Source of the DNA: a virus
Length of the DNA: 22,002 nucleotides
Virus record (IMG/VR): IMGVR_UViG_3300033142_000846
Location: 1 to 22,002 of that record
Strand: one strand, 5' to 3'
Below the pieces are notes generated by a model. The model searched no databases. It was not told the origin of the DNA and was given only the letters and a program-made list of their open reading frames with translations. The position numbers and the translations under genes were made by a program. Positions 16,652 through 20,758 of this stretch are shown here, piece after piece (the first letter of the stretch is position 1; each line of letters opens with the position of its first letter).

Positions 16652-16790
16652 CAGTTTTATCATCACGATTTCTTATGGTTATCATAAATATTTCTTATGA
16701 TAGCAATTTTGATGATCGAAGAATTACATGTGTATTACAAGTGTAAATGAGTAGACACATGAGTGTATGCGAGTAGATCGCGGCCCTGGA

Positions 16791-16809
16791 ATTTAGATCA
16801 ATTTAGATT
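16791..16809 (+). repeat. Pair of ATTTAGAYN 9-mers
   Basis: ATTTAGATC and ATTTAGATT are separated by a single base, the same spacing as the pair in the primase promoter. Confidence 0.7.
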
Positions 16810-16866
16810 ATCCACCTTGTGGTAGATGTGTGGTAGATGATTGAATTGATGATGGTGGAGATGATT

Positions 16867-16920
16867 ATTGAGATAATTTAGATGATTGAGATCGTTTAGA
16901 CCGTTTAGATCATTTAGATA
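16867..16920 (+). repeat. Six tandem 9-mers (iteron-like array)
   Basis: Six contiguous 9-base units are seen: ATTGAGATA, ATTTAGATG, ATTGAGATC, GTTTAGACC, GTTTAGATC and ATTTAGATA. The surrounding sequence is AT-rich and noncoding. The period is slightly short of one helical turn, so successive sites would rotate around the DNA. The arrangement resembles iterons of replication origins or a multi-site operator; which one is not decided by sequence. Confidence 0.75.
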
Positions 16921-16941
16921 GGGGAAACAGAGGGGTTAGAG

Positions 16942-17166
16942 ATTTAGATCATTTCGACCATGTTTCTATACATACTATCTCATATATATATATAAAAAAG
17001 ACTATATCTTTAGGTCTAGATGATCTAAATATCTAACAGAAAAACCCATAGTGGATAGAGAATCAACCCAGGAGAGAAGAGGCCCCGCAAACAGTCCCGA
17101 TTGATCTCCACTGAGTAAATTAGACCATTTAGACCTCCCAGGTTAAAATCCTAGATCATTTAGATG
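16942..17166. repeat. Further dispersed 9-mers
   Basis: Tandem pairs occur at 16942-16959 (ATTTAGATC, ATTTCGACC), 17118-17135 (AATTAGACC, ATTTAGACC) and 17149-17166 (TCCTAGATC, ATTTAGATG). One pair at 17013-17030 is inverted (GGTCTAGAT, GATCTAAAT). Between them are a TATATATATATA tract at 16984-16994 and a larger inverted repeat (AGTGGA at 17050 with TCCACT ending 17112). No gene is seen between 16546 and 17383. Confidence 0.65.
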
Positions 17167-17240
17167 AGCGTTTTGCCCCTGGAGATTTTTAAATGCACCT
17201 CGTAGATTTTGACTCTGCTCGCCCCACTGGGTAGAGGTGT

Positions 17241-17510
17241 GCGAGCGTAGCGAGCGTGAGCGAGGAACGAGCGAATAGGTTCCGGGGTGCGGCGGGCGGT
17301 AGCTCCCGCGGCTTTAGCGAGCGTAGCGAGCTTTCCTTCCTCTTGGGTGAGCCTGCGAACTGCGAGCGTTAGCGAGCTGATCTTTAAAGGTCCGAACGTA
17401 GTGAGGCCCTCTTCTTAGGCGAGCAACGCGAGCTATGAGCTTCTTTCATTATTTCTTGGGCGAGCCTGCGAGCTGTTAGATGTTTTTCCTTCGCTTGGCG
17501 AGGAACGAGC
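17241..17510 (+). repeat. Dispersed GCGAGC-N2-4-GCGAGC repeats
   Basis: Copies are at 17241-17255 and 17317-17331 (both GCGAGCGTAGCGAGC), 17362-17377, 17419-17433, 17460-17473 and a degenerate one at 17498-17510. Another copy lies at 17762-17776 (GCGAGCGAAGCGAGC). Each is two GCGAGC half-units in the same orientation around a short variable centre. Base composition is far more GC-rich than the adjoining 9-mer region. Confidence 0.7.
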
Positions 17511-17623
17511 TCTTGGTTGTTGCGACGCCGGTAGGCCAAAGCAACTGATAGATCAGCATGCGTTGATAATGGGGAGTGATTGTGGAACACAATCATCGAG
17601 CCATTGTCATGAGCATGCTTCAT
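17384..17623 (-). pseudogene. Possible JAB/RadC-like metalloprotease fragment
   Basis: The 79-codon reading frame contains MIVFHNHSPLSTHADLSVAL. The HNH-x7-D spacing with Ser resembles the H-x-H...S-x-x-D metal motif of JAB/RadC (JAMM) domains. Only about 25 residues look domain-like. The rest runs through the GCGAGC repeats and becomes Arg/Lys/Ser-rich. There is no ribosome site or promoter. I read it as a possible remnant of a captured gene; chance similarity is quite possible. Confidence 0.3.
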
Positions 17624-17647
17624 CGGTGGGTGGTGGGGTAGGCGGTG

Positions 17648-17748
17648 GGCTGCTTGCAGCCTCTACTGTGTCGCGAAGCGACTCATTTTACCCGGGCTTG
17701 TCCCGGGTCCAGGCCAAGGGCCTGGTTTACTGAGTTGTGAAACAACTC
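17648..17748. repeat. Cluster of five perfect short hairpins
   Basis: In order: GGCTGC/GCAGCC around TT (17648-17661); GTCGC-GAA-GCGAC (17670-17682); ACCCGGG-CTTGT-CCCGGGT (17690-17708); CCAGGCC-AAG-GGCCTGG (17709-17725); GAGTTGT-GAA-ACAACTC (17732-17748). All stems are perfect, 5-7 bp, and three loops are three purine-rich bases. None is followed by a clear T-run. This region is just downstream of the terminator of the leftward 119-aa gene. Confidence 0.75.
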
Positions 17749-17786
17749 ATCATTTCTTTTTGCGAGCGAAGCGAGCGGCGGAAATT

Positions 17787-17831: not shown

Positions 17832-18191
17832 TTAGATGAATTCTTTCTTTTGGGCAATCGCTGAGATCATCGCGTGAATATGGAGATAATTCTTAGTATC
17901 TTCTAATTGTTCAGATATAAGAGTATTCCATTCTTCTTTGGTTGTCTCGGGGTTGTGGAAGAATTGAGTCACGGAAACTGATCGCCAGTTCTCGGTTCTC
18001 GTGGCAACTTCAGATTCTTTGTAGAGTCTGTTTTGTCGAGAAGGGATAATCTTGTGTTCAAATAATTTCATCAAGATATCGTCTTTCGATTTGCCTTCAT
18101 CGTGAAGTTCTTTGATGAGTTGAATCATCTCTTGATCTTCGTCTTTGATTCGTTGAATTTCTGAATCGAGGGTTTGGTCTTTCTTGGTCAT
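17832..18191 (-). CDS. Standalone 119-aa protein, possible DNA-binding regulator
   Basis: This protein has its own promoter (18241-18269) and terminator (17787-17817), so it is a single-gene unit. Residues about 30-85 (KSKDDILMKLFEHKIIPSR, then a spacer, then NWRSVSVTQFFHNPETT) resemble the winged-helix-like segment of serine recombinases. There a helix ending in a GI(P/T)SR turn is followed by W-x-S/T-V-x-x-F/I-x-x-NP. No catalytic recombinase domain is present. A DNA-binding regulator acting on the nearby repeats is an inference from fold-like similarity and gene position. The ribosome site is AAAGAGA. Confidence 0.65.
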   Translation of the reverse strand: MTKKDQTLDSEIQRIKDEDQEMIQLIKELHDEGKSKDDILMKLFEHKIIPSRQNRLYKESEVATRTENWRSVSVTQFFHNPETTKEEWNTLISEQLEDTKNYLHIHAMISAIAQKKEFI

Positions 18192-18361: not shown

Positions 18362-18562
18362 ATGAGGTTATTAAAATTAGTGATTGAGTTAGAAAAGAAA
18401 ATTGAGTCAATCGGTCATGAGTTAGAAATGTATCATCGTTGTGAGGGTCGGTTTGATGAGTCTCGAATTGAGATGAGTGTTCGTGAAATGTGTAATTCTC
18501 AATTGAAGGTTCTCAATGATGAATTGAGTTCGATGGTAGTTCAGAAAAGAGTCAGAAAATGA
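18362..18562 (+). CDS. Small 66-aa coiled-coil protein
   Basis: The helical charged sequence (KLVIELEKKIESIGHELEMY, then QLKVLNDELSSM) fits a short coiled coil. An AAAGG ribosome site lies about 9 nt upstream. No clear -35/-10 pair was found ahead of it; the region 18300-18335 is G/T-rich. If expressed, its transcript would continue into the repeats and foldback RNA downstream, because no terminator intervenes. Function unknown. Confidence 0.55.
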   Translation: MRLLKLVIELEKKIESIGHELEMYHRCEGRFDESRIEMSVREMCNSQLKVLNDELSSMVVQKRVRK

Positions 18563-18630: not shown

Positions 18631-18728
18631 TAGTATGTCTATATCTCTCTAGGGGTAGTATGGTTATATCTCTAGAGGGATAGTGTCTATATCTATGAGT
18701 GGATAGTGTCAGTCTATCTCTTGAGAGA
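18631..18728 (+). repeat. Four tandem ~25-bp units, each a small hairpin
   Basis: Units begin TAGTATG or TAGTGTC at 18631, 18656, 18681 and 18704, with lengths 25, 25, 23 and 25. Each contains a 16-base core: TATCTCTCTAGGGGTA, TATCTCTAGAGGGATA, TATCTATGAGTGGATA and TATCTCTTGAGAGATA. In plus-strand RNA each core folds to a 6-bp stem with a 4-nt loop, using U-G pairs where the core is not a perfect palindrome. The last unit runs into the long foldback. Confidence 0.7.
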
Positions 18729-19026
18729 TATAGAATTTTATTTTTTATTGTGGAGAGAAGAGCGTAGTGTAGCGGAGAGAGCGCAGAGATTCATGGTCGT
18801 AACAAATCTCATTGATCGTAGCCTCTCTAATCCAGGGTGCAGTCTACCTAATCAAGGGCGTGAAGTGACGAGGTACGAGGAAGCTTTATGCCCTGGATTG
18901 GGTGGGCTGTACCCTGGATTAGGAGGGGCGAAGGTCAATGAGATTTGTGGAGGCCAGGAATCTCGGAGTGAACGCAGTGAAGCGGAGAGATGAACGGAAC
19001 AATAAAAAATAAAATTCTATATCTCT
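18724..19026 (+). ncRNA. Long foldback RNA, about 303 nt
   Basis: The outer arms 18724-18751 and 18999-19026 are a perfect 28-bp inverted repeat, very AT-rich. After a symmetric 34/34-nt unpaired region, 18786-18866 pairs with 18883-18964: 75 of 81 positions pair, with six A-G mismatches and one bulged base. Eleven of these pairs are G-U in plus-strand RNA; no A-C pair occurs. The apical loop is about 16 nt. The inner stem contains the repeated element CTAATCCAGGG. Two terminators follow at 19105 and 19147, ending the unit before the terminase promoter. A transposon-like (MITE) origin is possible; the one-sided wobble favours a functional RNA. No known RNA family is recognised. Confidence 0.75.
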
Positions 19027-19104: not shown

Positions 19105-19139
19105 AGACGTGCCTGGGAAAAAAGGGCTCTCGTCTTTTT
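19105..19139 (+). terminator. Rho-independent terminator after the foldback RNA
   Basis: AGACG/CGTCT with an inner GCC/GGC pairing, followed by TTTTT. Confidence 0.72.
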
Positions 19140-19146
19140 AAGATAT

Positions 19147-19173
19147 GACCCAACATCACTTGGGTCCATTTTT
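19147..19173 (+). terminator. Second terminator after the foldback RNA
   Basis: GACCCAA-CATCAC-TTGGGTC: a perfect 7-bp stem followed by CATTTTTA. Together with the previous one it insulates the late promoter from upstream transcription. Confidence 0.78.
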
Positions 19174-19186
19174 ACACTCTTTTATT

Positions 19187-19232
19187 CCTTAGATCATTTA
19201 GATCGCTCAGAATATACCCATTTATGGGTATA
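19187..19232. promoter_or_regulatory. Probable operator of the late promoter
   Basis: Two 9-mers (CCTTAGATC at 19187-19195 and ATTTAGATC at 19196-19204) match the array at 16867-16920. The palindrome TATACCCAT-TT-ATGGGTATA at 19213-19232 has 9-bp arms. The same two kinds of element, in the other order, lie upstream of the primase promoter at 8557-8593. Confidence 0.6.
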
Positions 19233-19258
19233 GACTCTTTCGAGATACTCTATATAAT
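19231..19258 (+). promoter_or_regulatory. Putative late promoter for the terminase operon
   Basis: TATAAT at 19253-19258, with TAGACT (four of six matches to TTGACA) 16 bp upstream. The palindrome overlaps the -35 by two bases. The transcript would begin near 19265, leaving a leader of about 40 nt without a Shine-Dalgarno. Confidence 0.5.
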
Positions 19259-19306: not shown

Positions 19307-20758
19307 ATGTCTCAATCCATATCTCTACCGTACCAATTCACACTACGGGACTATCAGCAACCGATATGGGACTACTTCCTCCAGAATAAGCCAGGACTAC
19401 GTGGATTAGCTATCTGGCCCAGGAGAAACGGGAAGGATATAGTATCACTGAATATACTGATCGCCAAGGCCATCCAGAAGGTTGGTCTTTATTTGTATAT
19501 AGGCCCTTTGCATACCCAGACCAGACAGATCGTGTGGATGGGCACGGACGACGACGGTAAGAGATTCCTCGACTATATACCACCACAGATCATCGCCAAG
19601 AAGCGCAACGCTGTCATGGAGATCGACCTTATCAATGGGTCAATGATCAAGATCGTGGGTAGTGACCAATACGATAACCTTATGGGGCTAAACGCCCAAG
19701 GTGCTATATTCACTGAGTACAGTTTACAGAAACCAGCTGCCTGGGATTACATCCGTCCTATGATGGCAAACAACGGTGGATGGGCCTTGTTCAACGGTAC
19801 ACCTCGTGGACTGAACCACATGTACAATATGTCGAACATGGCTAAGAAGAACGATGCTTGGTTCTACCAGTATCTGACTCGGGACGATACCGGCTATCCT
19901 ACTTTGGCTGCTATACAAGCCGACCGTGAAGCTGGTATGAAAGAGAGCCTGATCGAGCAAGAGTACTACGTCAGTTGGGATTCCTCAGCTGAAGATGTAT
20001 TCATACCATTGGACTTGATAGCTCCAACCCTGGAGAACGAGATACCAGAAGCAGACTACATGGGTCAGCCACGAATCTTCGGAGTGGATGTAGCCTATGC
20101 TGCTAAAGGTGATAAGGCTGTTATCACTTACCGACAAGGGCGCAAGGTCCACTGGATCAGATGGTACCAGGGTATGGATAACATGGCGTTCGCCAACGAG
20201 ATTAGCCGACTGTCTAAGATCATCAATCCTCATATCATCAACATTGACGCTGGGCGGGGTGAGGGTGTCATATCCCGACTAGAGCAACTAGGTCACACAG
20301 AGCAAGTAAGATGGGTTCACTTCGGCGGTAAGGTCTACGAAGAAGGTATCTATAACATGAAGGCCTTGATGTGGATACGAATGCTTGCATGGTTCCAAGA
20401 CGATAACAGACCAGACCTTTCTAACCTTGACGAATCACCTTATACTAACGAAGATGTAGAAGAGCAGTTGATACAAGAGCTCTCCACTCCGTTCATGCTC
20501 CTAGACGAGAAGCAACAAGTACGGGTCGAACCTAAATCCTCGCTCAAGGCTAGAGGTGAGAGTTCTCCTGATCTGGCCGAATCTCTGGGATTGACCTTTG
20601 CTGAGGAGGTTGAACTTGACGAATTACCTGATCCTCGACTAGAGGCTATGGGTGTTACTCCCGATATGATGGCGGCGATGCAACTCACTGAACAACAAGG
20701 TGAGTACGACTGTCTCAACTATATGGACAAGATGATGGGTGGATACGATGGAATCTAA
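19307..20758 (+). CDS. Terminase large subunit
   Basis: This 483-aa protein is the DNA-packaging motor. The ATPase domain has Walker A WPRRNGKD at 37-44 (the RRxGKD form found in many phage terminases), a Walker B ending in catalytic E137 (GAIFTEYS) and coupling motif FNGTPRG at 162-168. The RNase H-like nuclease domain has D261 (FGVDVAY), D314 (NIDAGRGEG) and D422 (SSPDLAESLGL). The length is normal. The ATG is preceded by CCCGTTCACACT with no Shine-Dalgarno, unlike almost every other gene here. It is the first gene after the late promoter, directly downstream of the foldback RNA unit. Confidence 0.95.
   Translation: MSQSISLPYQFTLRDYQQPIWDYFLQNKPGLRGLAIWPRRNGKDIVSLNILIAKAIQKVGLYLYIGPLHTQTRQIVWMGTDDDGKRFLDYIPPQIIAKKRNAVMEIDLINGSMIKIVGSDQYDNLMGLNAQGAIFTEYSLQKPAAWDYIRPMMANNGGWALFNGTPRGLNHMYNMSNMAKKNDAWFYQYLTRDDTGYPTLAAIQADREAGMKESLIEQEYYVSWDSSAEDVFIPLDLIAPTLENEIPEADYMGQPRIFGVDVAYAAKGDKAVITYRQGRKVHWIRWYQGMDNMAFANEISRLSKIINPHIINIDAGRGEGVISRLEQLGHTEQVRWVHFGGKVYEEGIYNMKALMWIRMLAWFQDDNRPDLSNLDESPYTNEDVEEQLIQELSTPFMLLDEKQQVRVEPKSSLKARGESSPDLAESLGLTFAEEVELDELPDPRLEAMGVTPDMMAAMQLTEQQGEYDCLNYMDKMMGGYDGI

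Follow-up and report, generated by a model that had tools for sequence, protein, structure and literature searches.

The pRNA of phage phi29 is a structured plus-strand element located near packaging genes, a description that also fits the 303-nt foldback reported here (Table 1), and the initial annotation had listed a packaging RNA of this kind among the possible roles. However, the foldback is a long simple hairpin, has no Rfam match at threshold and is absent from relatives with the same terminase, leaving the proposal unsupported; in addition, the terminase encoded beside it belongs to PHROG 2, with podovirus terminase relatives, and is not of the gp16 type. A second parallel is the concatemer-junction hairpin and terminal-repeat region of the T7 group: these are also podoviruses, and the foldback adjoins a likely packaging junction with repeat arrays nearby, but its sequence is unrelated, and the genome end and terminal repeat are here putative only. 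GOLLD, ROOL and OLE are structured intergenic elements of several hundred nt as well, some of them in phages; they have conserved, branched structures backed by covariation, whereas the foldback is a single lineage-specific rod. REP sequences and the ends of IS200/IS605 are imperfect palindromes recognized as single-stranded DNA (ssDNA), in which one strand keeps mismatched hairpins. The foldback likewise keeps a mismatched hairpin on one strand, but it is far longer, is present in a single copy and has no transposase seen nearby.

The window, i.e. the whole 22,002-nt stretch analysed, is a 22-kb record representing a fragment of an uncultured podovirus, with proteins including a Sak4-like annealing protein, a Cas4-like exonuclease, a helicase, a DUF3987/primase-like protein and the terminase. 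The foldback is a lineage-specific structured intergenic element beside phage packaging genes. A 95-aa ORF overlying it had no Pfam match, and a coding reading was rejected. Applying the retron msr-msd criterion, no Pfam match to a reverse transcriptase was found among the ten window proteins scanned, in a genome that is incomplete.

Table 1. Position of the foldback, its parts and the neighbouring features in the window
Feature	Position	Strand	Remarks
119-aa leftward gene	17832–18191	-	Borders the slot on the left; relatives L008 (27%, E 2e-12) and L009 have a homologue at this place
66-aa ORF	18362–18562	+	Same strand as foldback; no relatives found; a shared transcript may start here
Palindrome array	18636–18723	+	About three imperfect 23–25-nt palindromes, TCTATATCTCTAGAGGGATAG-like, abutting the foldback
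Whole foldback	18724–19026	+	303 bases, folding back on itself
Outer stem, 5' arm	18724–18751	+	28/28 complementary to 18999–19026
Internal region, 5' half	18752–18785	+	34 nt, rich in purines; the 3' half is a near direct repeat of it
Inner stem, 5' arm	18786–18866	+	GTA side of two 3x3 loops: 18799–18801, 18818–18820
Terminal loop	18867–18882	+	
Inner stem, 3' arm	18883–18964	+	Loop partners GGA (18949–18951) and GAA (18930–18932)
Internal region, 3' half	18965–18998	+	34 nt
Outer stem, 3' arm	18999–19026	+	
Conserved element, ~65 bp	19110–19175	+	GGGAAAAAA ... TTTTTAAGATATGACC ... ATTTTTACAC
Terminator-like hairpin	19147–19166	+	Followed by CATTTTT; z -2.9
Sigma70-like promoter	19231–19258	+	TAGACT-16-TATAAT, ahead of the terminase
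Terminase large subunit	19307–20758	+	PHROG 2, E 1.9e-33

The perfect outer stem and the inner stem with 75 pairs over 81 positions and one bulge, both described in the initial annotation, were reproduced; the columns of the inner stem comprise 64 Watson-Crick, 11 G-U and 6 A-G, with no A-C and no mismatch type other than A-G. The symmetric 34/34-nt internal region is also present, but its halves proved to be near direct repeats (86% over 21 nt, 18760–18780 versus 18970–18990) and not mutually complementary. Two 3x3 internal loops, spaced by 19 nt, account for four of the six A-G mismatches; both have one frame, GUA/GGA and GUA/GAA (G-A ... A-G), which is well tolerated in RNA. Folded as RNA, the plus strand gave an MFE of -165.3 kcal/mol (z -17.1, equalled by 0 of 100 shuffles) and the minus strand -118.3 kcal/mol (z -15.5); DNA parameters again favoured the plus strand (-81.7 versus -65.8). 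The first 12 nt of the 5' outer arm are an inverted copy of the TCTATATCTCT unit of the palindrome array upstream. The mismatches within the palindromes of that array are again mainly G-T and A-G.

The initial annotation had put the odds of so one-sided a split between G-U and A-C at 1 in 2,000. This is too strong, since strand composition was ignored: over the foldback the plus strand is G-rich and C-poor (GC skew +0.36 to +0.49), which itself favours G-U over A-C. Drift was therefore simulated from a perfect stem with local or regional base composition and several transition biases, a simple model that does not cover every mutational asymmetry. The mean expectation was about 7–9 G-U and 4–5 A-C columns, and with the skew included the probability of 11 G-U and 0 A-C was about 0.0014–0.003. 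The full mismatch pattern is more striking than had been stated, the probability of finding nothing but G-U and A-G among the 17 non-Watson-Crick columns being at most about 2e-4. The strong local skew would suit a functionless by-product, an inverted duplication in a repeat-rich slot of fast turnover whose G-U bias came from strand-asymmetric mutation; this is rather unlikely, however, in view of the latter probability, which is what skew alone gives for the observed mismatches, and of the 75 pairs kept over 81 columns. On these statistics, selection probably keeps the plus strand of the foldback paired. Selection on one plus strand agrees with the bias, which does not separate RNA from ssDNA; DNA folds show the same plus-strand preference.

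No Rfam family matched the foldback at gathering score. In a lax search the best match was mir-199, with 22 bits against a threshold of 60 bits, and the pRNA family was not listed; the mir-199 match is not credible, as any long hairpin might give such a score. The element occurs once in the genome, and no homologue was found in phage records, in the relatives or in scans of IMG/VR and GTDB genomes for the exact core. G008 has a 19-nt match to the stem (E 0.016), but within a coding gene, and this was taken as chance. The dispersed copies expected of a mobile element were not seen. A MITE-like mobile element with the 28-bp arms as its terminal inverted repeats is accordingly disfavoured and very improbable: the repeats are perfect, and a TA dinucleotide stands at both ends once they are trimmed by 7 nt, but the copy is single, and apart from this possible TA there is no convincing target duplication. 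An assembly artefact (inverted amplification chimera) was rejected because the arms of the foldback have diverged and are not identical.

We favour, with a probability of roughly 0.4, the reading that the foldback is a single-copy, lineage-specific hairpin in a control region, between leftward genes and the rightward packaging operon, and acts as a structured plus-strand RNA with an RNase III-type or protective role. A short plus-strand transcript would begin before the foldback, perhaps with the 66-aa ORF, would carry the foldback as its structured 3' part and would end at a terminator at about 19147–19171, before the late promoter. The stem of about 80 bp might then serve for RNase III-type processing or as a nuclease-protection structure, separating the upstream transcript from the late operon. 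This reading is favoured by i) a fold far beyond that of shuffles, ii) the plus-strand preference, iii) the restriction of all 17 non-Watson-Crick columns to G-U or A-G, iv) the common frame of the two 3x3 loops, and v) slots in two relatives that are likewise more structured on the plus than on the minus strand (z -8.7 versus -4.3 in L008 and -7.1 versus -5.8 in L099). It is placed slightly ahead of a DNA hairpin because the mismatch pattern is one that RNA helices tolerate and because a plausible terminator lies between the foldback and the late promoter. If transcribed, the foldback would be an undescribed dsRNA-like phage RNA beside packaging genes.

Several observations weaken the RNA reading. 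A search of the interval from the 66-aa ORF to the foldback revealed no sigma70-like promoter on the plus strand, the sequence is kept in no relative, and the slots of L100 and L101 are weakly structured. G-T and G-A are among the better tolerated mismatches in DNA too, and the DNA fold has the same plus bias. Thus, of the earlier proposal of a structured phage RNA under selection, plus-strand selection survives the skew correction, while its RNA nature is less secure. Of the two terminators previously placed after the foldback, the hairpin at 19147–19166 is convincing, but the upstream candidate at 19120–19139 folds no better than shuffles; the promoter-like site noted ahead of the terminase was confirmed, although sites of this kind occur in the stretch no more often than expected by chance.

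Relatives, i.e. phages with terminases 64–69% identical to that of the window, were obtained from IMG/VR (L003, L007, L008/L009, L099, L100 and L101; all uncultured viral contigs), terminase matches among phage records being below 60% identity. L008, L099 and L100 have the gene order of the window: a leftward gene (about 110 aa) is followed by a noncoding slot and then by the packaging operon, which runs rightward. Homology of the leftward gene was examined in L008/L009, whereas L099 and L100 have leftward ORFs of similar size at the same place. The slot sequence of the window is shared by none of the relatives. In L008/L009, two strains, the slot holds GTGCGTAC repeats in which purines and pyrimidines alternate over about 350 bp (L008 8751–9099; L009 1385–1733), self-complementary and identical across two metagenomes; their strong folds were considered as a homologous foldback and rejected as another element. 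The slot of L099 holds an array of short hairpins, that of L100 direct repeats with little structure (z -1.5), that of L101 little structure (z -3.2), and that of the more distant L104 palindrome and tandem repeats. Altogether, plus-strand structure is strong in 3/5 slots (z -10.6, -8.7 and -7.1) and weak in 2/5. These differing repeats would agree with the foldback being a by-product of rapid turnover, but the slot of L008 and L009 shows 0 changes over 511 nt, compared with 5 over 221 nt in the nearby leader, arguing against quick short-range turnover. They also allow an unlikely but broader view, in which slot hairpins form a rapidly replaced class, acting as plus-strand RNA or ssDNA beside the packaging junction of this podovirus family, so that each lineage would have its own self-complementary sequence, be it a foldback, alternating GTGCGTAC repeats or hairpin arrays, for the same role, with structure or single-strand folding mattering over sequence. 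An essential, conserved role, whether as RNA or as DNA, fits poorly with the weak structure in L100 and L101.

Downstream of the foldback we found an element of about 65 bp that was absent from the initial annotation. It consists of GGGGAAAAA, about 14 nt, ATTAT...GACC, about 14 nt and ATTTTT, lies ahead of the late promoter, and occupies the same place in 6/6 phages whose sequence reaches there, the window included (the others at L007 68, L008 9103, L099 1447, L100 9467 and L101 2305). Its GGGAAAAA core had a shuffle probability of 0.001–0.006 in each phage. An exact narrow-pattern scan of IMG/VR gave no matches, and a conserved RNA hairpin was rejected, folds of the first box being no better than shuffles. 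The element is a candidate packaging, replication or late-control site; whether the foldback acts as RNA or DNA, it offers a concrete, testable cis-acting site.

It is plausible that the slot is a genome-end or packaging junction. The termini of the distant Alteromonas phage ZP6, assigned with PhageTerm, are at the syntenic place (PMC8515928), and a GC-rich, repeat-like stretch adjoins its right end. GC skew changes across the conserved element, from positive before it to zero or negative after it, in the five phages that span it; the end of the L007 contig lies 67 nt ahead of the element, and L003 starts near the expected position of the element. For T7, a hairpin DNA intermediate of concatemers has been reported, according to a citation in PMC4281155. 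A close but somewhat less probable rival to the RNA reading is a DNA element at a junction either of the genome end (packaging/concatemer) or of replication. Its plus strand would fold when single-stranded (for instance in a 3' overhang of the right end or a nicked concatemer), as do T7 packaging hairpin ends, with the conserved element as recognition or cutting site. The position of the slot, directly upstream of both the terminase and the 6/6-conserved element, agrees with this; however, the map of G009 closes on itself, the contigs of G002 and G008 break inside structural genes, and the hairpin is not conserved among members with the same terminase. If the foldback acts as DNA, it would give a clue to how the genome ends are built in an uncultured family of podoviruses.

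One CTTGTCTTTCTG tandem repeat, together with the sequence that follows it, is found both at positions 1–77 of L101 and at the far end of that record (L129), so that its map is circular, at about 43.7 kb. Elsewhere in the window, a second structured noncoding stretch (17230–17780) contains many GCGAGCGAAGCGAGC-type palindromic repeats, in a style resembling the 34-nt halves of the foldback, and folds at -132 versus -106 kcal/mol per 300 nt. TTTAGATC/TTTAGAC words, possible iterons, are repeated in noncoding regions of the window (16790–17170 and 19185–19205) and in the leaders of L003 and L007.
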